Shown here: positions 6,802 through 21,816 of the stretch, piece by piece
Numbering within the stretch: the stretch's first letter is position 1
Layout: each line of letters opens with the position of its first letter
Made by a program: the position numbers and the translations under genes
Virus record (IMG/VR): IMGVR_UViG_3300031587_000169
Span: 1-23,753 of that record
DNA from: a virus
Direction: 5' to 3' (one strand)
DNA: 23,753 nucleotides
Notes under the pieces: model-generated
The model's input: the letters and a program-made list of their open reading frames with translations, nothing else
What the model was told of the DNA's origin: nothing
The model's database searches: none

Positions 6802-7118
6802 TGACAACAAAAGTTGGTTATATCTACGGCAAATGTGGTCTCTGTGGAAGAGAGTATCGTGCTCAGCGTCCTGCTGACTCTGTTCTCTGCGACTGCTACA
6901 AGTATTGCCCGATTTGTAGTCCGCCTTGGACTGTGCCTATGACGCCTTTCACTCCCGACAATGCTAATCCTATAACCTATCGTAATGAGGACAGGTTTGG
7001 CGTGAAGGGACAAGCCCTAGAGAAGGCTGAATGGAATCTTGAAACGCTTTGCGTGTGCTACAACCACACGCCACCATACTACAGCAACCTGAAGCCGGTG
7101 GAAGTGAAACTAACATGA
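6801..7118 (+). CDS. Small cysteine-rich, zinc-ribbon-like protein
   Basis: A 105-residue protein whose ATG shares TAATG with the stop of the fibre-like gene. It carries CGLCGREY near residues 12-19, CDCYKYCPIC near residues 30-39 and a later CVCYNH, giving at least two CxxC-like pairs that could bind zinc. The middle is proline-rich (PPWTVPMTPFTP). The translational overlap puts it in the same operon as the surface protein; it may be a small structural or assembly protein. The family is not recognised. Confidence 0.65.
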   Translation: MTTKVGYIYGKCGLCGREYRAQRPADSVLCDCYKYCPICSPPWTVPMTPFTPDNANPITYRNEDRFGVKGQALEKAEWNLETLCVCYNHTPPYYSNLKPVEVKLT

Positions 7119-7327
7119 CACTAAACGACGAAGAAAAAGCTCAGCTCAGAACAAGAATCAAAATAGAAGGAACCATCGATAAAACTGTGTTCGAAGAATT
7201 CAGAAAAATCTTAGCGTTAGAAATTGAGAAGGCTGAAGAGGAAGACAAAGTACCGCCCTCAGTAAGCCACATCCTAGAAATGCTGCTAAGAAAGGGCATC
7301 AAAACCTACAGAACAGAAAATAAGTAA
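7115..7327 (+). CDS. Small helical protein, unknown
   Basis: A 70-residue protein beginning at the ATG of an ATGA overlap with the preceding stop. An in-frame ATG at 7049 would extend it, but that part is a shadow of the cysteine-rich gene. A short strand (TRIKIEGTID) leads into an acidic helix, then SVSHILEMLLRKGIKTY, which resembles the second helix of ribbon-helix-helix proteins. It is the last gene before the foreign-looking cassette. The function is unknown. Confidence 0.6.
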   Translation: MTLNDEEKAQLRTRIKIEGTIDKTVFEEFRKILALEIEKAEEEDKVPPSVSHILEMLLRKGIKTYRTENK

Positions 7328-7385
7328 TTCCCATGCAATTCTCTTTGTTGTGATCCACTTATCATCTCAAGAAGTCGAATCAAAC

Positions 7386-7394
7386 TTAATAAAA
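7386..7394 (+). promoter_or_regulatory. TATA-like box of the three-gene cassette
   Basis: TTAATAAAA lies about 34 bases before the ATG at 7424 in a 96-base AT-rich gap, with the ribosome site GAGGTGA at 7414-7420. Typical archaeal spacing would start transcription near or just inside the ribosome site, so the exact start is unsure. The gap itself argues that the cassette has its own promoter. Confidence 0.4.
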
Positions 7395-7423
7395 GGATAC
7401 GAGTTATTCATAAGAGGTGAATC

Positions 7424-8590
7424 ATGACGCAACAAACAAAACTCCTCAAGCTGCGAGGTTCCATTCATGATGCGCAATATCTCTTTGCTGGGATTAGAGC
7501 AATTTTATTGCTGAAAGATCCTTCAGAAAAAGGAGAAGTAATAGCTGGTGTTAGAAAAGAGATTTCTGATTACAACCGAGAATTTGCAGAGAAGTATAAC
7601 CTGGGCAAGCCCAGGAGTATTGGGCCCTCACTTGCAAACGACGTTGTTACAATTCTCAAAGCATTAGACATTGTCGAGCTTGAAAAGAAAAAAATCAGAT
7701 TTTCACCACTCGGAGAACATTTGGCGTTTCTTCTGGAAAACTCTCAGACCAAAGGGTTCAGAAATGAGATGACCAAGTTAATGGTCAACAAGTTTTCTCA
7801 ATTGAGTTCATTTTTGACTAGCCTGTATCGGCTGACAATAAATGGAGAACTCGTTTTGCCAAAAGTCACACCTAAGCTTTTAGAAATCAGCAAAGGAGAT
7901 ACGATGACTATGGCTGACCGGATGATAGAGGTCGCGTCAAGAAATTTAACTGAAACACACAAATCAAGATTAAGCTCATTAGACCTCCAGAAGAAACTAC
8001 GCTTGCACATTGAAATGACAAAAGGCAAAAAAATTAAGTCTTTAGAAGTTGCTGCACATCGATATCTGATTTCTAATCTAATGGGTCCTGAAATTGCCAA
8101 CAAGAGGACATATGACATAATTCGCGATCAATGCGTTTCTCTATTCCTAGTTAACTCCGGGTATTTAGAAAAGGAAGACACACATTGCGAAGTGGTTTAT
8201 CTTACCTCATGGCTTTATCCAGATATGATGCCACCTTCGAATATCAATGAGTTCAACGATATTGATCTAGGCGATGGTAGACAAATTCGAATCCATGAGC
8301 CATCGTCGCCTGGCTTTAAAGTAAAATTTTCAGAAACTGTCAGCGAAACCTTCCGAAATCTTCAACCCGAATTCGGATTCGTCAAGATCAGTGACTTAAG
8401 GAATGAGGTCTGCAAGAAGCTCCGGATTTCCGATAGATTTTTTGATTCAGAAATTGTCACACTTCATCAACAGAACCCTCAGAAATTTAGTCTGAGCTAT
8501 TCCTTTGAGAAAGTGACTTCTAAGAAATTGCCAATACTAGTAGGCGATACGCTTAAGACTATTTATAATCTCATAAGAATTGCAGAATAA
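7424..8590 (+). CDS. Winged-helix protein of defence-like cassette
   Basis: A 388-residue protein with GAGGTGA four bases before the ATG. Residues about 12-105 read as a winged helix-turn-helix: helices around HDAQYLFAGIRAILLL and SIGPSLANDVVTILKALDIVE, then the wing KKKIRFSPLGEHLAFLL. A second winged-helix-like unit ends the protein (about 315-360: FVKISDLRNEVCKKLRIS, then LHQQNPQKFSLSYSF). The 200-residue middle is helical and basic (KKLRLHIEMTKGKKIKSLEVAAHR). It is probably the DNA- or partner-recognition subunit for the ATPase and nuclease that follow. There is no membrane segment or enzymatic motif. Composition is more A+T-rich than the flanking virion genes. No specific family is recognised. 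Confidence 0.65.
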   Translation: MTQQTKLLKLRGSIHDAQYLFAGIRAILLLKDPSEKGEVIAGVRKEISDYNREFAEKYNLGKPRSIGPSLANDVVTILKALDIVELEKKKIRFSPLGEHLAFLLENSQTKGFRNEMTKLMVNKFSQLSSFLTSLYRLTINGELVLPKVTPKLLEISKGDTMTMADRMIEVASRNLTETHKSRLSSLDLQKKLRLHIEMTKGKKIKSLEVAAHRYLISNLMGPEIANKRTYDIIRDQCVSLFLVNSGYLEKEDTHCEVVYLTSWLYPDMMPPSNINEFNDIDLGDGRQIRIHEPSSPGFKVKFSETVSETFRNLQPEFGFVKISDLRNEVCKKLRISDRFFDSEIVTLHQQNPQKFSLSYSFEKVTSKKLPILVGDTLKTIYNLIRIAE

Positions 8591-8610
8591 TCTCAATGGA
8601 ATGTGATTAA

Positions 8611-9795
8611 ATGGACTACTCAGATTATTACCTTATTGAAAATCCCTTCCCGGAAGGGGGTGTGCTCCAACCTTATTCATCGAATCCAAAGATCAACGGA
8701 GAAATTTTTTGCGTGGAAGCGAGAAAAGATACGATCAATAAGTTTGAACAGCGTTTTATCGGTGCACCACACTTTTCTGAAAGAAAGAAAGTAGGCTTTT
8801 TGTGGGCCGAAAGTACCATCGACTTTGGTCGTGGGATGGGCAAGACGGCTCTATTAGTCTACTTCAAACACAAAATAAACAAAAATTGGGGGAGAGATTA
8901 CACTCAAACCGACACAAAGAAGTTGTGTGCAATCTACGTCAGCTTTGATCAAGAAATCAAAGACTATCAACTAGAACATATTTGTTTGTTAGCATTAAGA
9001 GCTTGCATAGAAGATAGGGTGTTCCAAGAGATTAGAAAGAACTGCGACTATGACGCTTTGATTAAAAGTGGAGTCCAAGGGGATTTTGCAACACATATCG
9101 CAAACGGCACCGTAAAGGATTATCTCATAAGTCTTTGGCATAAACCCGAATTGACGCTCCCTCGTCTTCCGCGTGATACTTATCTGCTGAACCTAACTGT
9201 TGATTTATTCTTCAATCAGACTGTTAGAGCTCTCAGAGCAGCAGGTTTCATAAACGGTCTACTATTTGTAGATGATATCGAGAATCTTGTTGACCTTCCC
9301 GGTCAAAAGCATAATATTATTTTTGCCAAAAATTTTGGCTCTGGTTTTCTGAGAGGCTCAACGACACAGGCAAGAGAACGATTTTTTTCTGCGATATTTA
9401 CGACACACTTCAACTCAGCTCGAAAACTTACAACTGCATGGCAGGAGGCAGGTCTTTTGTCAGCTTACCCTCTGGAGCCAAAAGGAGAATCGGCTGTAGA
9501 AGTCCCCAAGCCTGACGAATCTGCAAGCCTTGAAATGGTGAAGGCATACATGGACCACTTTCGATTAGAGAACATTCCATCAGGCATTTCTTCCTTTTAT
9601 CCATTTACTGAGGAAGCCATAAAAAAAGCTGTCAATCTAGCAATATATCATCCACGAACGTTTCTGCAGAATTTGAATTTGATCGTAGAGAAAGCATTGG
9701 CAGCAAATCAGAAACTAATTGATGAGAAATTTGTGATGGAAAATTGGATGATCAAACCAAAGACAGCAGAAGTACCAAGAGTTGACCAGATCTAA
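8611..9795 (+). CDS. P-loop (AAA/STAND-like) ATPase of defence-like cassette
   Basis: A 394-residue ATPase, 20 bases after the winged-helix gene. It opens with YYLIENPFPEGG, a start seen in Orc/AAA-type and defence ATPases. Walker A is FGRGMGKT at residues 72-79, with phenylalanine where the first glycine is usual. Walker B is LLFVDD (217-222). A sensor-like segment IFTTHFNSARKL (262-273) follows a TTQARERFF helix. The C-terminal part (about 320-394) is helical, with an AAA-lid-like FYPFTEEAIKKAVNLA followed by HPRTFLQNL, which resembles the PR-FLQ lid signature of such ATPases. It is predicted to couple ATP hydrolysis to DNA loading or nuclease activation. The substrate is unknown. Confidence 0.7.
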   Translation: MDYSDYYLIENPFPEGGVLQPYSSNPKINGEIFCVEARKDTINKFEQRFIGAPHFSERKKVGFLWAESTIDFGRGMGKTALLVYFKHKINKNWGRDYTQTDTKKLCAIYVSFDQEIKDYQLEHICLLALRACIEDRVFQEIRKNCDYDALIKSGVQGDFATHIANGTVKDYLISLWHKPELTLPRLPRDTYLLNLTVDLFFNQTVRALRAAGFINGLLFVDDIENLVDLPGQKHNIIFAKNFGSGFLRGSTTQARERFFSAIFTTHFNSARKLTTAWQEAGLLSAYPLEPKGESAVEVPKPDESASLEMVKAYMDHFRLENIPSGISSFYPFTEEAIKKAVNLAIYHPRTFLQNLNLIVEKALAANQKLIDEKFVMENWMIKPKTAEVPRVDQI

Positions 9796-9818
9796 TTTCA
9801 ATAGTGGGGCTTCATTAG

Positions 9819-10583
9819 GTGGCTTTTGCTCCAAGGCCTTCAAGGATACAAGCAGTAACTATTCAAGCGCACTATTTTGTTAAGAACGTATGGCCTCATA
9901 CGCAACGAACAGACGAACCCGACAGAGGATTTCAACGCGCTTTCGCGGACTATATGACTAGAGGAAACTTGTTCGAAAGTGGAAGCGCATTTTGTCAGCA
10001 CGATTTCGGTAGAGGCCTTGAAACATTGTCTACGGTCCAGCATGAGTTAGACTTCATCGGTTGGACAGAGAACAACGTATGCGTCTTTGAACTGAAGTTG
10101 TACGAAGTAACTGCACTTCCGAAAGACCTTATTCTTGCTTTTTATCATAAAGTACTAGATTTCTATCTAAAGAATATTGAATATTTCAAAAGTCAACGAG
10201 TATTGTTGTTTCTTCCGACAAGGTATGCTCCAATTGATGACGTTATACGGATGATATGCTTTTCCTGTGGCATAGTACTTATTGATACAGAACTATACCC
10301 CTCAAGGCTTATTGAATACTATGCTTCAGATATGCTTGCGCATCTTGATAGTTTGACATCTGAAAATCATCGTAGGAGATTTGAGAACTTTCTAGACCTA
10401 AGTAGAAAATTTGTCCAAGCCAGTTCCTTTTCTATATCTGATTATTTCACTCTGGATTCAAAGAATCATATAGTTTTCACTCCAATTATCAAATCGCCTA
10501 AATCTCTTGTTAGAAGGCATAGAGTGATCAATGCAAGATTTGGGCACCTGAAAGATCTGTTTCAAAGTCTCCGTCAGAATTGA
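9819..10583 (+). CDS. PD-(D/E)XK-type nuclease of defence-like cassette
   Basis: A 254-residue protein with a GTG start (the next in-frame ATG is at residue 46) and GTGGGG nine bases upstream. The restriction-endonuclease core is visible: D78 in QHELDFIGW, then E91 and K93 in VFELKLYE, spaced as in the D-Xn-ExK active site, followed by the helix AFYHKVLDFYL and the strand QRVLLFLP. This is the layout of nucleases such as Mrr, RecB-like and DUF4143-type effectors. As the third gene of the cassette it is the likely DNA-cleaving effector, probably gated by the ATPase. Its stop lies inside a hairpin. No methylase is present, so self-protection must be indirect. Confidence 0.7.
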   Translation: MAFAPRPSRIQAVTIQAHYFVKNVWPHTQRTDEPDRGFQRAFADYMTRGNLFESGSAFCQHDFGRGLETLSTVQHELDFIGWTENNVCVFELKLYEVTALPKDLILAFYHKVLDFYLKNIEYFKSQRVLLFLPTRYAPIDDVIRMICFSCGIVLIDTELYPSRLIEYYASDMLAHLDSLTSENHRRRFENFLDLSRKFVQASSFSISDYFTLDSKNHIVFTPIIKSPKSLVRRHRVINARFGHLKDLFQSLRQN

Positions 10584-10600: not shown

Positions 10601-10642
10601 TACATATATTTCATCCATTTTGTCACATCTTATCCGATTCGG

Positions 10643-10650
10643 TTTAAATA
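10643..10650 (+). promoter_or_regulatory. TATA-like box restarting the virion operon
   Basis: TTTAAATA lies about 46 bases before the chosen TTG start at 10689. Archaeal spacing would place transcription start near 10672, leaving a short leader. It follows the cassette terminator, so it could restore expression of the neck genes downstream of the inserted unit. A second AT-rich stretch (10602-10609, around CATATAT) is also possible. Confidence 0.35.
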
Positions 10651-10688
10651 ATGCCCATTTTTCATTATCCGTCTTAGAGCGTGGCTCT

Positions 10689-11042
10689 TTGGCTACTGTT
10701 TCAGCTGACGACATTCGTGATGTGATTAACATTTCTTCAGCTGAGATCCCAGACGCTAAGGTTTTAAAGATGGTGAAGCGTGCCGAGGTTACGCTTGAGC
10801 TTGAAACAAGCAGAGAAATTGATTATAGTAACTGCACAGACTCTGAGAAGGAGTTTATCACGGTTCTTGCTGCAATTTACGCTATCTGCTATCTCACCGG
10901 CGGTTCTGCTGTTGGCTTAAGTTTCTCTGTTGGAGACCAGAACGTAAGCGTTCTGGGTAAGGCTCCGCCTCTTGATGTTTTGCAGGATGAGTTGAACCGC
11001 ATGCTGGACAAGATGCGAGGAACCACGATGAGGAGAATATAG
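10689..11042 (+). CDS. Head completion/adaptor protein, gp6-like
   Basis: A 117-residue protein. VSADDIRDVINISSAEIPDAKVLKMVKRAEVTLELE is split as the classic start of HK97 gp6/SPP1 gp15-type adaptors: a first helix with 'IPDxxV', then a long acidic helix and a CYLTGG turn. The frame is open upstream to a TTG at 10620, but the extra 23 residues look unnatural and overlap the proposed promoter, so the TTG at 10689 is chosen; the ribosome site is weak either way. It would sit between portal and stopper. It ends one base before the next ATG, with GAGGAG in its last codons. Confidence 0.7.
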   Translation: MATVSADDIRDVINISSAEIPDAKVLKMVKRAEVTLELETSREIDYSNCTDSEKEFITVLAAIYAICYLTGGSAVGLSFSVGDQNVSVLGKAPPLDVLQDELNRMLDKMRGTTMRRI

Positions 11043-11043
11043 C

Positions 11044-12459
11044 ATGAAGGTTCCTGACGCATATTACCAGTTCATCATTGACTATGCCCCATACGTTTAC
11101 GTCATTCCACCCAACACTCCAGACCCTGCATGGGGCAGAGCCGCTTTCGCCGCAGCTTTCGCAATCGATTTTCTCTATCAAGCCTACTATGACTCTGAAT
11201 TTGCCAGCAAACAAGCGGAAATCTACAACAAGATTGTCAGTCTAGCTGACTGGATTTTAACCCAACAAAACACTGATCCAGCAAAGAAGGCTTATGGTGG
11301 ATTCAAATCAAACGAAACAAGCACCTACTACTACAGCGTCGATGCAGCCAGAGTTATTCCAAGTCTAATCAGAGCATACAAGCTAACGGGCACAGTTGGA
11401 TATCTCAACGCTGCTAAGCTGTCAGGAGCCACTTTCCTCTACAACATGCAGCATCCGCCCACACCCACAATTCACGACAAATACTACGGCGGTTTCGCTA
11501 GGGCAGTCACAGACACGGACACTTGGCTGCCAGAAATGGACATTGAAAACCTCTACGCACTCATCGGACTCCAGATGCTAGCTGCAGAGGACCCTGTAAA
11601 CACCACTTTATACAACACAATGATGGCAGAAGCGGTTAGTTTCTTGTGTGAAGGCTTTGAGAACCTCTGGCTCGAATACAGACCTCCACCAACTTACGAC
11701 GGGTCATGGCATAGAGTTGGCTTGACTGAGAACGAGATTTACGATGACCCGTTCGCCTACGCTTTGCTGGGGCTCTACGATTATGAAAGCTGGAGCCTAA
11801 CCGTCGAAAAAGTCTACAACTTCATCAACACCATAAGAGCCAGCGCACAGTACCCAGCCTACAACCCAGCCATCTGCTGGGGAGGCTACATTGATATCGT
11901 AAGTCGTTTTCCAGTCTGTGATTACTACGACGCTGTGACTGCTGGAATACTCTGTCAGATTCGGAGAAGCCATGATAAGTCAAGCCTCGAATTCAGCATG
12001 AAAATCATCGACAAGCATCAGAACGAGTTTATGTTCTGGGGCGTCAAGCACAGCGACTACAGCTATGTTGAAAACAAGCAAGCTATGGCAACAGTCGCTT
12101 GGCTTTCTCTGCTCTACCTAAACTACGAGGAACCCATAACCCGCTTTACACAGATTTTGCGTTCTAAAGGCGAAAACATCACTCTGTATCCAGTGCGTGA
12201 AACTACTGAAACAGTCTTATATGGCGAAGGCATCGACATCAAAGCCATAGTTTCTCCAGCCAGAGCCGACCAAATCCTCATCGAACCCGGCTACATAATC
12301 AACGACTACCTAACAATCCACGTTTTCGCTCCAATAAGACACCACGACAAGATACGCCGCAAAGGCGTCGACTACGAAGTTCTCGAAATTCAAGAATTCG
12401 ACTTCCAAAACGAAACCGCCTATCGCCGAGCAGTTTGCAGGAGGCTTCTGGGACAATGA
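11044..12459 (+). CDS. Alpha/alpha-toroid domain fused to head-tail stopper
   Basis: A 471-residue protein with GGAG eight bases before the ATG. Residues 1-364 are a series of helix pairs like a six-hairpin (alpha/alpha) toroid: FAAAFAIDFLYQAYY, ADWILTQQNT, DAARVIPSLIRAYKLTG, ENLYALIGLQMLAAED, DPFAYALLGLYDYESW, AMATVAWLSLLYLNY. The recurrent GGF/GGY turns (YGGFKS, YYGGFAR, WGGYID) and aromatic-rich loops are seen in glycosidase, lyase and epimerase toroids. Residues 365-471 match a head-closure (stopper) protein, with 'GEGIDIKAIVSP', IIND, HHDKIRRKGVDYEVLEI and a terminal RRAVCRRL helix. The catalytic pair cannot be assigned, so enzyme versus binding role is open. Confidence 0.7.
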   Translation: MKVPDAYYQFIIDYAPYVYVIPPNTPDPAWGRAAFAAAFAIDFLYQAYYDSEFASKQAEIYNKIVSLADWILTQQNTDPAKKAYGGFKSNETSTYYYSVDAARVIPSLIRAYKLTGTVGYLNAAKLSGATFLYNMQHPPTPTIHDKYYGGFARAVTDTDTWLPEMDIENLYALIGLQMLAAEDPVNTTLYNTMMAEAVSFLCEGFENLWLEYRPPPTYDGSWHRVGLTENEIYDDPFAYALLGLYDYESWSLTVEKVYNFINTIRASAQYPAYNPAICWGGYIDIVSRFPVCDYYDAVTAGILCQIRRSHDKSSLEFSMKIIDKHQNEFMFWGVKHSDYSYVENKQAMATVAWLSLLYLNYEEPITRFTQILRSKGENITLYPVRETTETVLYGEGIDIKAIVSPARADQILIEPGYIINDYLTIHVFAPIRHHDKIRRKGVDYEVLEIQEFDFQNETAYRRAVCRRLLGQ

Positions 12460-13463
12460 CTGAAGTAGAAGACCCTGTTGTCACGCTTGTGCGGTTGCTC
12501 AAAACGAACATGCGAGTCGTAAACGACGACGGCAGCTTAGCCAACATTCATGTCAGCCGAGAATGGTACGACAGAGAACTACTCAAAAACTACGACGGAC
12601 AAGTCACTGTAGGTCTACGTCAGCCAAGCCCAGTCAAGCCTCTCAATCTTGACCATTCACTTTCTCAGCGCATTCTGAACTTCAAGGTTGACTGCTGGGT
12701 CGTCGATAAGGCGCAGGTTAACGGAAACAGATTGCGGTCGAAACTCCGAGAGGAAATCCTCCGCATCATCCGAGAGAAACGGTTCAAACCCAACGAGACA
12801 CTGTACGATTTCGTGGGTGGAAGCCGAACCGCAGGCTCTCATAAAGCATACAGCGCTGAATCATCCACAGAGCTAGAGCCTCAAGACCTAAACTGGACAG
12901 AGCTCACAGACGCAGATTACCAGAAGATTTGGTACAGCGACGATGTCCGTGTTGCCAAAACCACTGAACAAGATGGATACTATCCGATGCTTCTTTTCCG
13001 ATTCAAATTTGACGTGTCCAAAGGCGACCCGAACGTCAGTGCTGTGAAAAAGATTGTTCTGAGTTTTGAGGGTTACAGCTGGAACTTGGCTGGTGTAGGC
13101 GTAACAATCAAGGTTTGGAATCGTCTAACGAGCACATGGGATAACGCTCAAAGCGGCACAGGGTCCAGCGATGAGACAATTATCATTACCTTGACTTCTA
13201 ACCTAACAAATTACGTTAATGTAGATTCAACCACGGGCATAGGCTACTTGTATCTTTTAGCAAGAACCACAAATCCGAAGAGCACTCCAAGCCCGGTTGA
13301 TATCTACTGCGACTATGTTAAATGCGTCTTGACCGTGGAAGGGTTAACCCACGTAAAATTTGGCAGTTACAACGATGCTGACGAAACTTCTGTCAAGCCG
13401 TTTTTGTGGCATTCTGAATTCGTGGTCATAGGTTGGATGTTTGAAAATGTTCAGGCAACATAA
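12456..13463 (+). CDS. Tail terminator-like protein with inserted beta-sandwich
   Basis: A 335-residue protein starting at the ATG of an ATGA overlap with the stopper; GGAGG is about ten bases upstream. Residues 1-120 resemble a tail terminator/neck subunit: DPVVTLVRLLKTNM, then KVDCWVVD and the helix NGNRLRSKLREEILRIIRE. The final strand, WHSEFVVIGWMFE (318-330), would complete that fold. Between them, about 150-296, is an independent beta-rich unit (MLLFRFKFDVS, VKKIVLSFEGYSW, VGVTIKVWNRLTSTW, GYLYLLARTT, VDIYCDYVKCVLTVEG) with the look of a jelly-roll, carbohydrate-binding-type domain. It probably caps the tail tube and displays the extra domain at the neck. Confidence 0.6.
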   Translation: MTEVEDPVVTLVRLLKTNMRVVNDDGSLANIHVSREWYDRELLKNYDGQVTVGLRQPSPVKPLNLDHSLSQRILNFKVDCWVVDKAQVNGNRLRSKLREEILRIIREKRFKPNETLYDFVGGSRTAGSHKAYSAESSTELEPQDLNWTELTDADYQKIWYSDDVRVAKTTEQDGYYPMLLFRFKFDVSKGDPNVSAVKKIVLSFEGYSWNLAGVGVTIKVWNRLTSTWDNAQSGTGSSDETIIITLTSNLTNYVNVDSTTGIGYLYLLARTTNPKSTPSPVDIYCDYVKCVLTVEGLTHVKFGSYNDADETSVKPFLWHSEFVVIGWMFENVQAT

Positions 13464-13477
13464 GGAGAGAGTAAGCC

Positions 13478-14323
13478 ATGGCGTATGGAGCGCATGAAGC
13501 CAAAGTCTACTACGTACAAGAAACCAACTACGGAGAAACACCAAGCCCAAACCCCAGCATGCTCGGGTTAAAAACAGCCTTCGACATCGAACATAACATC
13601 GACCCATGTCTGCTTAAGCTGCGGGGTATCGGCAGCCGAGACCTAGACACAATCAAGAAAGGCTTGCGCAAGCCCACACTGAAATTCGGCTATCTTATTC
13701 CCAGCAGTGCACCCATCAGTTTTCTGCAGCATGCGGTAACTCTCAACAGCTTGAGCATTGAAATAATCTATGAGCAGGCTTCAATCATCGACTTGCTTTT
13801 CAAAGGCATGGAAATCGACAAGGTAACCGTGCAACTGACAGACATTGATAGCGAAAACGCCGTCGTAACAGTTCCCAATGTCGAGTTAATGGGTCAAAAC
13901 GTGGTTGTCGCCACAGCTAAGAACAGCACAAACTACGCCGATTACACAGGCGCTGTAGCCTACAATGAAAGCTACATCAAAAAAGGCACAACCACACTTG
14001 ACAGAGTAACAGATTGGAGCTGGACAATTGAGAACCACCTGAAGCGTGTTCCCGTTATCCGCAGCACAAGCGGAGAGCTTCTCAAATATCTCCAGCCCAG
14101 GCACCGCGACCTTCATGGCGAACTGACCTTCGAGTTTGAGTCCAAAGAAGAACATGACGAAGCCTTAGCTGACACAGAATTCAACCTAGAATTCGGGCTG
14201 GGTGGCTCAAACAAAGCTGTCTTCAGCAACTGCAAGTGGGAAGGCGTCAAAAACGTAGCTCGCATCGAAGACTTGGTGGCCGTGAAGGCGCCCTTCGTAG
14301 CCAAAACCGTTGCCATAAGCTAG
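13478..14323 (+). CDS. Major tail tube protein
   Basis: A 281-residue protein with GGAGAGAG upstream of the ATG. It begins AYGAHEAKVYYVQETNYGETP and has the alternating polar/hydrophobic strands of tail tubes: DIEHNIDPCLLKLRGIGSRD, LKFGYLIPSS, IEIIYEQ, KVTVQLTDID, DWSWTIENHLKRV, GELTFEFESKEEHD and VFSNCKWEGV. It is predicted to stack as hexamers forming the tail lumen. It lies between the terminator-like gene and the chaperone cluster, as expected. The next gene's strong ribosome site (AGGAGGTGA) starts within two bases of its stop, indicating coupled expression. Confidence 0.75.
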   Translation: MAYGAHEAKVYYVQETNYGETPSPNPSMLGLKTAFDIEHNIDPCLLKLRGIGSRDLDTIKKGLRKPTLKFGYLIPSSAPISFLQHAVTLNSLSIEIIYEQASIIDLLFKGMEIDKVTVQLTDIDSENAVVTVPNVELMGQNVVVATAKNSTNYADYTGAVAYNESYIKKGTTTLDRVTDWSWTIENHLKRVPVIRSTSGELLKYLQPRHRDLHGELTFEFESKEEHDEALADTEFNLEFGLGGSNKAVFSNCKWEGVKNVARIEDLVAVKAPFVAKTVAIS

Positions 14324-15485: not shown

Positions 15486-15843
15486 AATGGAGCTCCAAGT
15501 CGAAGGCGCCCAAGAACTAGCTGCGCAAATGCGTAAGCTTGACCGAACCATGTATGAAAGGGTCCACCGACGCCTCTACGAAATAGGCGTCAAGATGCGA
15601 AACCTGGCAAAGCAGCTTGCGCCTGTACGCACTGGAAGACTGAGAGACAGCATTTTCAGCAGAGTTCAAGGCTGGGAACTGAAGTTTGGAGCCAAGGCTC
15701 CTTATGCAGAATTCCAAGAGTTTGGCACACGTTACATTCAGCCAAGACTGTTCCTAACACATGCGGTTGATCAATACGACTCTGAGCTTGAGCTGCTGCT
15801 TGCCACAGCAGTTGAGGAAGCAATCAGGGAGGCTTCAACTTGA
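15475..15843 (+). CDS. HK97 gp10-like tail completion protein
   Basis: A 122-residue protein with the family hallmarks: a long N-terminal helix region (RTMYERVHRRLYEIGVKMRNLAK), the RTGRLRDSIF turn, then YAEFQEFGTRYIQPRLFL and a terminal helix. Members act in head-tail joining or tail completion. The position is unusual: after the tail chaperone rather than before the tail tube. The ATG overlaps the gpGT stop by 11 bases, and its own stop overlaps the next TTG start. Confidence 0.8.
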   Translation: MSVEMELQVEGAQELAAQMRKLDRTMYERVHRRLYEIGVKMRNLAKQLAPVRTGRLRDSIFSRVQGWELKFGAKAPYAEFQEFGTRYIQPRLFLTHAVDQYDSELELLLATAVEEAIREAST

Positions 15844-16385
15844 GCTTCAGAGAAATAGTTGTCACTGTTCGGGCTGTTAATCGTGCGAGCGCACAGTTTA
15901 GCCGTATTCAATCAGACGTGGAGAGCCTCGCAGCTAGGGTTAAGGCGCTTGGTTCAGCTATTGCTGCAGTAGGCGCCACTGGAGTAGCCATAGGACACAT
16001 AGCCCATCAATTTGGCATACTCAACGACGAACAAGCTAAGGTAGTTAATACCACAATGATGGTTGTTTCTGTCCTTGGCATGTTTATGCGGACCAGCTGG
16101 GGAGTAGCCGTTGCCCAAAAAGTCTATGCCGCTGCAACTTGGATTGCCACAGCAGCCCAGAACGCGCTCAACATCTCCTACGCCACTTTTCTAGCCTTAA
16201 CAGGCGTCGGCATAGCCGTCATAATTGCCGCTGCGGCTGCCATGTGGAGCTTCGCAAACAGCATGAATTCTGCAACCGCAAGCGTTCATGAATTCAATGC
16301 TGCAGCGTCTGAAGTGCCGATGGCTGGAAGGTCGATTAGGCGTGCTGGTGAAGAGGAGCTCTATCGGGCAGGTGTTGAATATTGA
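15840..16385 (+). CDS. Very short tape measure-like protein
   Basis: A 181-residue protein with a TTG start in a TTGA overlap with the preceding stop. It opens FREIVVTVRAVNRASAQFSRI, a beginning shared by many tape measure proteins, then a coiled stretch (DVESLAARVKALG) and four hydrophobic segments (about 37-60, 68-84, 89-108, 115-138), and ends ASEVPMAGRSIRRAGEEELYRAG. Tape measures determine tail length and often have membrane-active segments. Its length is far below the usual several hundred residues, yet its stop overlaps the next start cleanly, so a recent truncation is unlikely. A very short tail or an atypical measure protein is implied. Confidence 0.6.
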   Translation: MSFREIVVTVRAVNRASAQFSRIQSDVESLAARVKALGSAIAAVGATGVAIGHIAHQFGILNDEQAKVVNTTMMVVSVLGMFMRTSWGVAVAQKVYAAATWIATAAQNALNISYATFLALTGVGIAVIIAAAAAMWSFANSMNSATASVHEFNAAASEVPMAGRSIRRAGEEELYRAGVEY

Positions 16386-19081: not shown

Positions 19082-20335
19082 ATGAGCCCATCCATATTCG
19101 CTGAGCAAGTCTTGAAAATCAAGCCATTTCCATATCAGATTAAGCTCTTAGAGGATCCGCACAAACGCATTGTTGCTGTCATGGGACGTCAAAGCGGTAA
19201 AACCACGACCATAGCGGTCAAGGCTGTGCACTTCGCCGTCGCCCAAAACGGCGCAACCATACTGATAACTTCGCCTAGCCTGCGTCAAAGCATGATAATG
19301 TTCAGCCGCATATCCAGCTTCGTTTTCACCAGCCCATTAAAGTCTCGAGTAGTTAGGTCAACACGCACAATAATTCAGTTTGACAACCGAAGCGAAATCA
19401 TAGCTTTGCCAGCAAGCGAATACTTTCTCAGAGGATACACGGCGCATATGATCGTGGCAGACGAAGCCAGCTTCATGCCCGAAGAATTAATAACTAACAT
19501 AATCTTTCCAATGATAAGCACAACTGACGGCTACGCCATCTTCTTAAGCACGCCTTGGGCAAGAGACCACTTCTTCTACCGAGCCTTCATGAACCCCAAC
19601 TACAGCGTGCACAAGGTAAAGTCAAGCGAATGCCCACTAATCAAACCCGAATTCCTCGAAGAAATGCGCAGGAACATGACAGAAACCGCCTTCAAAATGG
19701 AGTGGGAAGCCGAATTTGTCGAAGCAGCAAGCGCCTTCTTTCCACAAAGTCTCATCAGAGAATGCGTAGTCAACGACCCTCCTCTAGAGTTTATCGCCAG
19801 CCTAGAAGAACCAGTGCCAGAAGGTGAGTATTATGCTGGTTGCGACTTTGGCAAACTAGAAGACTACAGTGTGCTTGCGGTGTTGAAGCGGGAAGGAGAC
19901 ATACTCAAACTTGTCTATCTGCACGAGTTTGAACTGGGAACTCCCTACAGCAATGTTATCGGGCATTTGGTCAGAGCGCATCAAAAGTTCAGTATCCACA
20001 AGGTCTTCGTGGATCAAACAGGCGTGGGCGAGCCTGTACTCGAGGAGCTGCAGAATCAGGGCATGAAAAACGTTGAAGGCTTGACTTTCACAGTGAAAAC
20101 CAAAGAGGAGTTGCTAACCTGCCTTAAGATTGCCATGGAACAAAAACGCCTAAAGATGCCTTATCATCTCAGACTTTGCCAACAAATCAACGAGCAACAA
20201 TACGAATACACCAAATCTGGTCATTTAGCTTTCTCGCATCCTACTGGAAGCCACGATGACATGCTGTGGGCTCTAAGCTTGGGAGTCTGGTCATCTACGA
20301 GAGAGGCGCCGTCTCGATTAGTGAGGGCTTGGTGA
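19082..20335 (+). CDS. Terminase large subunit (TerL)
   Basis: A 417-residue packaging motor from the ATG at 19082. Walker A MGRQSGKT (34-41), Walker B MIVADEA (123-129), coupling motif STPW (156-159). The nuclease domain has D255 (YAGCDFG), D311 (FVDQTG) and the HDD pair (391-393). The start is uncertain. The frame is open back to a TTG at 18917, and the stretch just before 19082 reads LDDIERQLSKLLVKQQ, which looks genuinely coding and coiled-coil; a TTG near 18983 has GGAG four bases upstream. It overlaps the ABC-GNAT start as TGATG. Confidence 0.88.
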   Translation: MSPSIFAEQVLKIKPFPYQIKLLEDPHKRIVAVMGRQSGKTTTIAVKAVHFAVAQNGATILITSPSLRQSMIMFSRISSFVFTSPLKSRVVRSTRTIIQFDNRSEIIALPASEYFLRGYTAHMIVADEASFMPEELITNIIFPMISTTDGYAIFLSTPWARDHFFYRAFMNPNYSVHKVKSSECPLIKPEFLEEMRRNMTETAFKMEWEAEFVEAASAFFPQSLIRECVVNDPPLEFIASLEEPVPEGEYYAGCDFGKLEDYSVLAVLKREGDILKLVYLHEFELGTPYSNVIGHLVRAHQKFSIHKVFVDQTGVGEPVLEELQNQGMKNVEGLTFTVKTKEELLTCLKIAMEQKRLKMPYHLRLCQQINEQQYEYTKSGHLAFSHPTGSHDDMLWALSLGVWSSTREAPSRLVRAW

Positions 20336-21816
20336 TGCGCAAAAGAGAGTATTTTGTTATCCGAAAGTTCATCAAAAAATATGACAGACAAACAGGTAAA
20401 TTCACAATTAACATAGCCTATGAGACTGCTGCTCCCAAGCCGACTCAAAGAGTTGTAGCTGTCGCTGAGAGCTTCGGATTAGGTCTAGACAAATGGGAAA
20501 AGTTTGTTGTTTACGATAATGTCGAGTTGAAAATAGGAACTAATGACATCACGCTCATAACAGGAGATTCCGGCTCGGGCAAGTCTGTTCTGCTGAGAGC
20601 TTTAGAGAAAGACATCGAGAACGACATGCAAGCCTCAACCATTAACATCGCCGACATTCATCCAGAACCCAACAAGCCTCTTATCGAAACAGTTGGCGTC
20701 ACGCTTGAAGAAGGCTTGGAGCTACTGAGCAAAGTTGGCTTAAACGATGCCTTCCTATTCCTACGTACTTTCGAGCAGCTGAGCGATGGACAGAAATACC
20801 GTTACAAAATCGCCAAGATGATGGAGAGCAAGGCTCAGTTCTGGGTTATGGACGAATTCTGTGCCACGCTGGACCGAGACACTGCAAAGATTGTAGCTTT
20901 CAACGTGCAAAAATTAGCCAGACAAGAAGGAAAAGCAGTCCTTGCAGCCACAACACACACCGACCTCCTTGAGGACCTGAAGCCTTCGGTTCACGTTCAT
21001 AAGCGATTTGGAAAAGAAATAGAAGTGTGCTACTATCCGAATGAGCCAGCCAAAGAATGTAGCTTGACTAAAGAAATCTGCGTTGAGGAAGGCACACGAT
21101 CTGACTATGAGCTGCTAGCTGATTTTCACTATCGCAGCCACAACGTTGGAATTGTTCGCAAGATTTTTCGTGCGGTGCGTGGCGATGAGGTTGCAGGCGT
21201 CATAGTCTATTGTTATCCTGGAATGACCGTGGCGGGACGCCTTAAAGTTCTGCCCAAAATGAGCGTGCAAGACTTGAACAAAAAGCTGAGCGTCATTATG
21301 CGGGTCGTTGTTCACCCCAAATATCGCACTATAGGTTTGGGTCAACGACTCGTAAGAGAAACACTGCCGCTTGTGGGCACGCCAAATGTTGAAACAATCG
21401 CCGTTATGGCAAAGTATAATCCGTTTTTTGAGCGTGCAGGGATGCAGAAGATTATGGAGCAGCCTACACCGAAACACGCCCTAGCTGTACGAGAGACGCT
21501 TTCAAAGCTAGGCTTCAGCTCAACTTTGTTAGGAAGCCAAAAATATGTTCTGAACAAACTTCAAAGCTTGCCAGATGAGCAATTGTGGGAGATCCGACAT
21601 GCTTTCATGCAAAACGTTCATCTGCGGTTTCTGAAGGAATTCTTCTACCACGAACCCTATGGAAAACGTGAGTTATACAGGCAAAGAATGCAGACGGCGA
21701 CTTTGGAAAAACTGGCTAAACTAATTCATGTGACAGCTCTGTTGTTGCAGACAAAAGTTTACCTGTTTTGGAAGAAAAAAGGGGAAAAAGAACAGAGTAT
21801 GGATAACGAAGGTTAA
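20335..21816 (+). CDS. ABC-ATPase fused to GNAT acetyltransferase (COG2401-like)
   Basis: A 493-residue protein starting at the ATG of TGATG with the TerL stop. The ABC half shows Walker A TGDSGSGKS (76-84), signature LSDGQKYR (149-156), Walker B FWVMDEF (169-175), D-loop ATLD (177-180) and H-loop TTHTD (206-210). The GNAT half has the acetyl-CoA-binding motif VVVHPKYRTIGLGQRLV (324-340) and a later NPFFERAGM (362-370). Cysteines in YNEPAKECSL-like linkers are present. This architecture is COG2401, seen in archaea and in viruses near terminases; its role is not established. It has no membrane segments, so it is not a transporter. Possible roles are in packaging, DNA processing, or modification of a host target. 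The gene ends with a TTAA shared with the convergent gene. Confidence 0.8.
   Translation: MRKREYFVIRKFIKKYDRQTGKFTINIAYETAAPKPTQRVVAVAESFGLGLDKWEKFVVYDNVELKIGTNDITLITGDSGSGKSVLLRALEKDIENDMQASTINIADIHPEPNKPLIETVGVTLEEGLELLSKVGLNDAFLFLRTFEQLSDGQKYRYKIAKMMESKAQFWVMDEFCATLDRDTAKIVAFNVQKLARQEGKAVLAATTHTDLLEDLKPSVHVHKRFGKEIEVCYYPNEPAKECSLTKEICVEEGTRSDYELLADFHYRSHNVGIVRKIFRAVRGDEVAGVIVYCYPGMTVAGRLKVLPKMSVQDLNKKLSVIMRVVVHPKYRTIGLGQRLVRETLPLVGTPNVETIAVMAKYNPFFERAGMQKIMEQPTPKHALAVRETLSKLGFSSTLLGSQKYVLNKLQSLPDEQLWEIRHAFMQNVHLRFLKEFFYHEPYGKRELYRQRMQTATLEKLAKLIHVTALLLQTKVYLFWKKKGEKEQSMDNEG

Follow-up and report, generated by a model that had tools for sequence, protein, structure and literature searches.

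In phage phi29 the appendage protein gp12 sits at the neck. As cited in PMC6116005 and PMC12494034, gp12 degrades teichoic acid and gp4 of phage P22 hydrolyses peptidoglycan; both bacterial podoviruses have a glycan- or wall-degrading activity near the head-tail joint. In the archaeal siphovirus HFTV1, which contacts its host head-first (PMC9973310), the turret protein gp31 combines galactose-binding-like and deacetylase-like domains and has been proposed to adhere to and weaken the glycan matrix of the S-layer, binding and modifying its glycans at adsorption (PMC12494034). In phage 812 the stopper and terminator rings are hexameric and the stopper gp97 has an external domain (PMC12886913).

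The window considered here is the whole stretch of DNA analysed, 23,753 nucleotides (positions 1 to 23,753 of the IMG/VR record IMGVR_UViG_3300031587_000169). Its open reading frame 11044-12459 (+) encodes a 471-residue protein, in our reading the stopper at the head-tail joint of a tailed Bathyarchaeia virus, which carries a toroid at its N-terminus. Like HFTV1 gp31, this is a case of virion proteins of an archaeal tailed virus that bring together binding-like and carbohydrate-active-like domains, but gp31 is located on capsid hexamers and has a polysaccharide-deacetylase fold with Zn sites, whereas here it is the stopper that contains the carbohydrate-active-like domain, a toroid, and the terminator that contains the binding-like one. 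Like phage 812 gp97, whose ring of six subunits lies next to a six-subunit terminator, the protein has an extra stopper domain; that of gp97, however, is an external beta-sandwich without resemblance to an enzyme. The phi29 and P22 proteins differ in fold, are not fused to a stopper and have bacterial wall polymers as targets. The original prediction, made from the letters of the DNA, had spoken of a new place for a carbohydrate-active enzyme. With phi29 gp12 and P22 gp4 known at the neck and the HFTV1 turret at the head, the place is not wholly new, but the fusion of a toroid to a stopper, next to a terminator with a carbohydrate-binding-like insert, appears to be: a literature search, with most subscription journals outside its scope, yielded no toroid fused to a stopper.

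AlphaFold2, provided with an alignment of 62 relatives, modelled the 471-residue protein with a pLDDT of 93.2 and a pTM of 0.92. In the model, residues 1-362 (11044..12129, +) form an (alpha/alpha)6 toroid and residues 366-471 (12139..12456, +) a head-tail stopper, with the domain boundary near residues 362-366. The toroid has twelve main helices (5-14, 34-48, 51-74, 98-115, 118-136, 167-182, 184-206, 234-248, 252-262, 298-310, 312-324 and 348-360), which we paired into six hairpins; C-terminal to it come a linker helix at residues 367-375 and then, at 377-467, a domain rich in beta-strands. The six-hairpin toroid that had been expected in the N-terminal 360 residues or so, fused to an otherwise ordinary stopper, was thus found, the latter also by the BFVD and PHROGs matches given below. 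The GGF/GGY turns from which it had been read fared differently: in the family alignment GGF at 85-87 and 149-151 is essentially invariant, whereas GGY at 280-282 is WxGY across the family.

Most of the matches listed for the C-terminal part in the BFVD viral library extend over no more than about 105-125 residues; those that bear a name include proteins of head-tail joining, of head closure and of the closure knob (TMt about 0.5-0.7). When compared with PHROGs, 17 of 25 family members matched phrog_939 and 4 of 25 phrog_161 ("head closure Hc1"). Stand-alone homologues of the stopper half are encoded in a provirus (L342; E 1.8e-26) and in four viral contigs (L355-L358). The position of the gene, between an adaptor-like gene assigned by synteny and a tail terminator assigned by fold, is that of a stopper, and the stopper ring, by analogy probably hexameric, would lie between adaptor and terminator.

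The adaptor-like head-completion gene (10620..11042, +) is located directly upstream and is conserved together with the stopper in related loci; its name rests on synteny because it has no significant family match of its own. The 335-residue tail terminator (12456..13463, +; model pLDDT 83) has a core of residues 1-112 and 295-335, with structural matches (VIA) to the HFTV1 tail entry chain 9fkb_Pa (Z 13.8), to T5 p142 (Z 13.1) and to T4 gp15 (Z 9.7-9.8). Inserted into this core is a beta-sandwich of residues 113-294 (12792..13337, +) with Z 8-10 to carbohydrate-binding modules and 14.1 to a phi812 baseplate protein (VIA). The insert is optional in relatives, being cleanly missing in L026/L172, L064-L069, L342 and others. 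Further downstream follow the tail tube protein (13478..14323, +; Pfam Phage_tube_2 over the cut-off) and, between an HK97-gp10-like gene and the hub, a candidate tape measure protein (15840..16385, +), which is kept in relatives and gave no family match. The candidate has only 181 residues, which suggests a short tail, and the neck would for this reason come near the cell surface.

Other genes of the window deserve mention in their own right. Between capsid and neck lie three genes (7424-10583, +) almost absent from related loci: one with a weak DnaD-like match, one for a P-loop ATPase of faint resemblance to the Sll1717 family and one whose product looks like a nuclease by eye; PADLOC named no defence system in this cassette upstream of the neck genes, which might be one for defence or anti-defence. 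Adjoining the terminase gene and conserved in relatives is a gene (20266-21816, +) for an ABC-type ATPase to which, by eye, an acetyltransferase domain of GNAT-like appearance seems to be joined. The portal gene (337-1590, -) is on the strand opposite to the remaining virion genes, as it is in L094 and L342; in L089, L099 and L106 it is on the same strand.

Relatives of the toroid-stopper were found in viral contigs and in Bathyarchaeota MAGs and Bathyarchaeia genomes. One scan gave 82 viral relatives, the aligned members being 47-83% identical, and over all loci fetched, some of which overlap, both domains were carried by 278 open reading frames, 178 of them distinct. Of the 257 Bathyarchaeia genomes searched, 42 contained a match, which in a few cases was a decayed fragment. 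When the search was widened to 398 genomes drawn from the phylum, every long match fell in a genome that the class search had already turned up, and two additional genomes showed short, weak ones. One relative (L089) is located on JAAKEZ010000002, the contig reported as the Bathyarchaeia tailed provirus BATPV1 (PMC11705971). Where viral loci were collected via the tail tube and had enough upstream DNA, the toroid-stopper was present in 39 of 39; annotated phage records contained no relative of it. The median dN/dS, from 446 non-independent pairs, was lower in the toroid (0.085) than in the stopper (0.119); both are under purifying selection. Given the 82 relatives, the matches in 42 of 257 genomes, the identity of 47-83% and the dN/dS of about 0.085, we regard the fusion as real rather than a product of chance.

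Toroid-stoppers were also seen in MAGs labelled Gallionella and Bipolaricaulis (L107, L108), which are probably binning errors. Short toroid-only matches in six genomes (G145, G137, G135, G118, G122 and G119), considered as alternative architectures, turned out to be truncated or decayed proviruses. A Bathyarchaeia alpha/alpha protein (L232) was considered as the cellular source of the toroid and dropped, the likeness spanning only residues 61-138, too little to name a source.

To which proteins is the toroid similar? With VIA-align, residues 1-370 matched the sugar 2-epimerase 5zig with Z 28.1 (329 residues, 3.4 A), the Clostridium perfringens glycosidase 3ren, described as an alpha-amylase, with Z 28.0, the GH88 hydrolase 2zzr with Z 25.3 and the GH76 mannanase 4v1s with Z 24.1; its best 50 structural matches were almost only sugar-active proteins, and structural matches were also listed by Foldseek. 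These enzymes and 2zbl, like 5zig an AGE-type sugar 2-epimerase/isomerase, share the (alpha/alpha)6 fold with the toroid over some 300-335 residues (Z 24-28), but their sequence identity to it is 5-15% and they are not fused to virion proteins. The likeness to the glycosidase/lyase/epimerase fold, also anticipated in the original prediction, therefore stands.

The assignment to a family is another matter. The mechanism of the AGE family (N-acylglucosamine/cellobiose 2-epimerases) needs a conserved pair of catalytic histidines; the toroid has the fold in common with this family, but no invariant histidine in 151 sequences, even the best two, H144 and H223, being variable. In Pfam, no family scored over the cut-off with the window protein. 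The C-terminal domain of D-glucuronyl C5-epimerase (PF06662) reached 15.4 bits against a gathering score of 23.3; one member (L094) passed with 25.0-25.6 bits, over only about 100 residues, and C5-epimerase-like matches, all in all weak, were obtained with 52 of 62 members. GH88 matched at a weak E-value in 5 of 62 members and GH76 in 2 of 62; an invariant Asp pair is present in the toroid (D234, D235) and would be the candidate for the catalytic Asp pair of such families. Searches of solved-structure sequences with single sequences and with profiles gave no significant match to the toroid-stopper, and a profile comparison showed no likeness of the family to YihS or BcsZ of E. coli. Judged from its model, the toroid has the architecture of a sugar enzyme, but we assign it to none of the enzyme families.

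Conservation was analysed in 151 distinct full-length toroid-stopper sequences. Twenty-one positions never vary (Y19, Q75, R103, L132, Q136, G149, W222, D234, D235, Y273, W279, G281, Y282, Y295, D296, G301, I302, R307, D311, W332 and W353), all of them in the toroid and none in the stopper. Enzymes of the (alpha/alpha)6 fold bind sugar on the side formed by the loops from outer to inner helices and the starts of the inner helices. We assigned residues to this pocket face from the helix and loop positions in the model, counting the loops from each outer to the next inner helix together with the six residues that open the inner helix, and found 17 of the 21 invariant residues there, including three Asp and four Trp. 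D100 (149 of 151) and the invariant R103 lie where an inner helix begins (11341..11352, +). W222, R224 and the invariant acidic pair D234/D235 belong to a loop and the inner-helix start behind it (11707..11748, +); the invariant Y273, W279, G281, Y282, Y295 and D296 to the loop before, and the start of, the next inner helix (11860..11931, +); and the invariant W332 to the loop leading into the last inner helix (12037..12039, +). The enrichment on the face (Fisher p 0.007; 0.049 when only the first five inner-helix residues are counted) supports a sugar site to a moderate degree, depending as it does on a definition of the face that was set after the model was seen. Conserved acids on the pocket face, which had been named as a sign of activity, are there in the form of D234, D235 and D296, invariant in all 151 sequences. 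The original prediction has in this way passed the refutation test set for it, which asked for a fold other than a toroid or for homologues devoid of conserved cavity residues.

The toroid is not found in all relatives. The provirus L342 and the viral contigs L355-L358 have a plain stopper of about 112-125 residues without a toroid in an unchanged gene order, which indicates that the toroid is a removable accessory and that the stopper works without it. In the tail-tube tree these five form one clade (99/92) nested within the toroid-bearing viruses. A single loss of the toroid in this clade would be the simplest reading of the tree, recombination of the tube gene being another. In L342, genes that by eye are sugar-nucleotide-epimerase-like and glycosyltransferase-like (7084-9235) lie between capsid and adaptor; they may replace the role of the toroid.

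The toroid also accepts insertions. In the loop that leads into the first inner helix (residues 22-26; 11107..11121, +), 18 of 62 relatives have an insert of 66 residues, absent in the window, that in 10 members weakly matches Pfam K1-lyase_Rider, the Rider domain of K1 capsule lyase. A profile of the insert found the Rider-like module also in tail hubs, tail tubes and beta-helix proteins of related viruses. In L345 there is a beta-helix protein with a Rider-like module and a tail-spike match (7578-8885, -), whose gene lies between those presumed to encode the adaptor and the stopper. L345 and the other distant relatives L347, L348 and L349 have Rider-module beta-helix, tail-spike-like proteins near the neck, the beta-helix match having been tested in L345. 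The tail tubes of L013 (7492-8568) and L010 (7568-8650), open frames of 359-361 residues, contain an inserted Rider-like module and would decorate the whole tail. Of the other neck variants, L351 has a 224-residue stopper (8747-9418) with a different, FN3-like looking domain in the middle, and in L343 (9156-10538) and L359-L362 a conserved protein of 450-470 residues, belonging to no known family, replaces stopper and terminator between the adaptor-like gene and the tube. By eye the 460-residue protein of L343 and its relatives seemed to join an N-terminal TIM barrel to a C-terminal terminator; since neither half was backed by Pfam, PDB-sequence or profile searches, we do not count it as evidence.

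We propose, as somewhat the better bet, that the toroids form a collar which binds and most likely cleaves or modifies host-surface glycans at adsorption. About six toroids, a copy number taken by analogy with other stoppers, would ring the neck, exposed on the surface of the virion, and the carbohydrate-binding-module-like beta-sandwich added by the next ring, the terminator, would aid binding. The glycans would be engaged via the conserved pocket with D234/D235, D296, D100, R103 and its Trp/Tyr platforms and most probably be cleaved or otherwise modified there, which would help the short-tailed virion to reach the membrane. This proposal is based on the confident model with Z 24-28 to sugar-active enzymes, on the invariant residues, none in the stopper and most on the sugar-binding face, on the lower dN/dS of the toroid, on its accessory nature, one clade lacking it with the same neck order, on the carbohydrate-binding-like insert of the terminator together with the Rider-like modules in 18 of 62 toroids and in beta-helix proteins near the neck of distant relatives, and on the parallel of the HFTV1 turret. 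Against it count the failure of the window protein to reach any Pfam cut-off, the fruitless profile comparison with YihS and BcsZ, the merely moderate, definition-dependent enrichment on the pocket face, and the loss in one clade, by which the toroid is not always needed.

A pseudo-enzyme that holds host glycans reversibly, like a lectin, and does not turn them over is the alternative to be taken most seriously, although we consider it rather unlikely: the fold and a pocket face with conserved aromatic and acidic residues are as compatible with binding as with turnover, and binding-type modules are frequent in these virions, but three invariant Asp and an Arg in an otherwise variable face exceed what binding usually needs, and virion lectins usually diversify, whereas the face of the toroid is unvarying across the 151 sequences. 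Less probable still is a structural role, in which the toroid braces the neck or aids its assembly and has merely inherited its fold from a sugar enzyme. The external beta-sandwich of the phage 812 stopper and the decoration proteins by which that neck is thought to be reinforced (PMC12886913) would be a precedent for it; however, the invariance is on an enzyme-type pocket face and is missing from the stopper itself, and close relatives assemble the same neck order without the toroid. It is very improbable, in our estimation, that the collar acts as a glycan-sensing trigger, in which occupancy of, or turnover by, the toroids displaces the ring of stoppers and readies the DNA gate; if it did, the neck would report contact with the right host before the tail tip. 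Last, editing of virion or host glycans inside the infected cell before assembly, with the location on the virion as a by-product of the fusion, would fit the C5-epimerase-like Pfam matches and the glycosyltransferase-like and epimerase-like genes of the plain-stopper relative, but we give it hardly any credence, since a cytoplasmic enzyme needs no tie to a low-copy virion protein in all toroid-bearing relatives and the other modules of the neck region look like those of extracellular polysaccharide binding or of tail spikes.

How tailed viruses pass through archaeal cell surfaces is largely unknown. Since the stopper that gates the DNA bears a domain like those of sugar enzymes here, and the adjoining ring, in some members, a binding-like one, the neck becomes a candidate organ of adsorption, for which the plain-stopper relatives are natural toroid-less controls, and the toroid a testable candidate for an enzyme acting on the Bathyarchaeia, sediment archaea that are abundant and barely cultivated.
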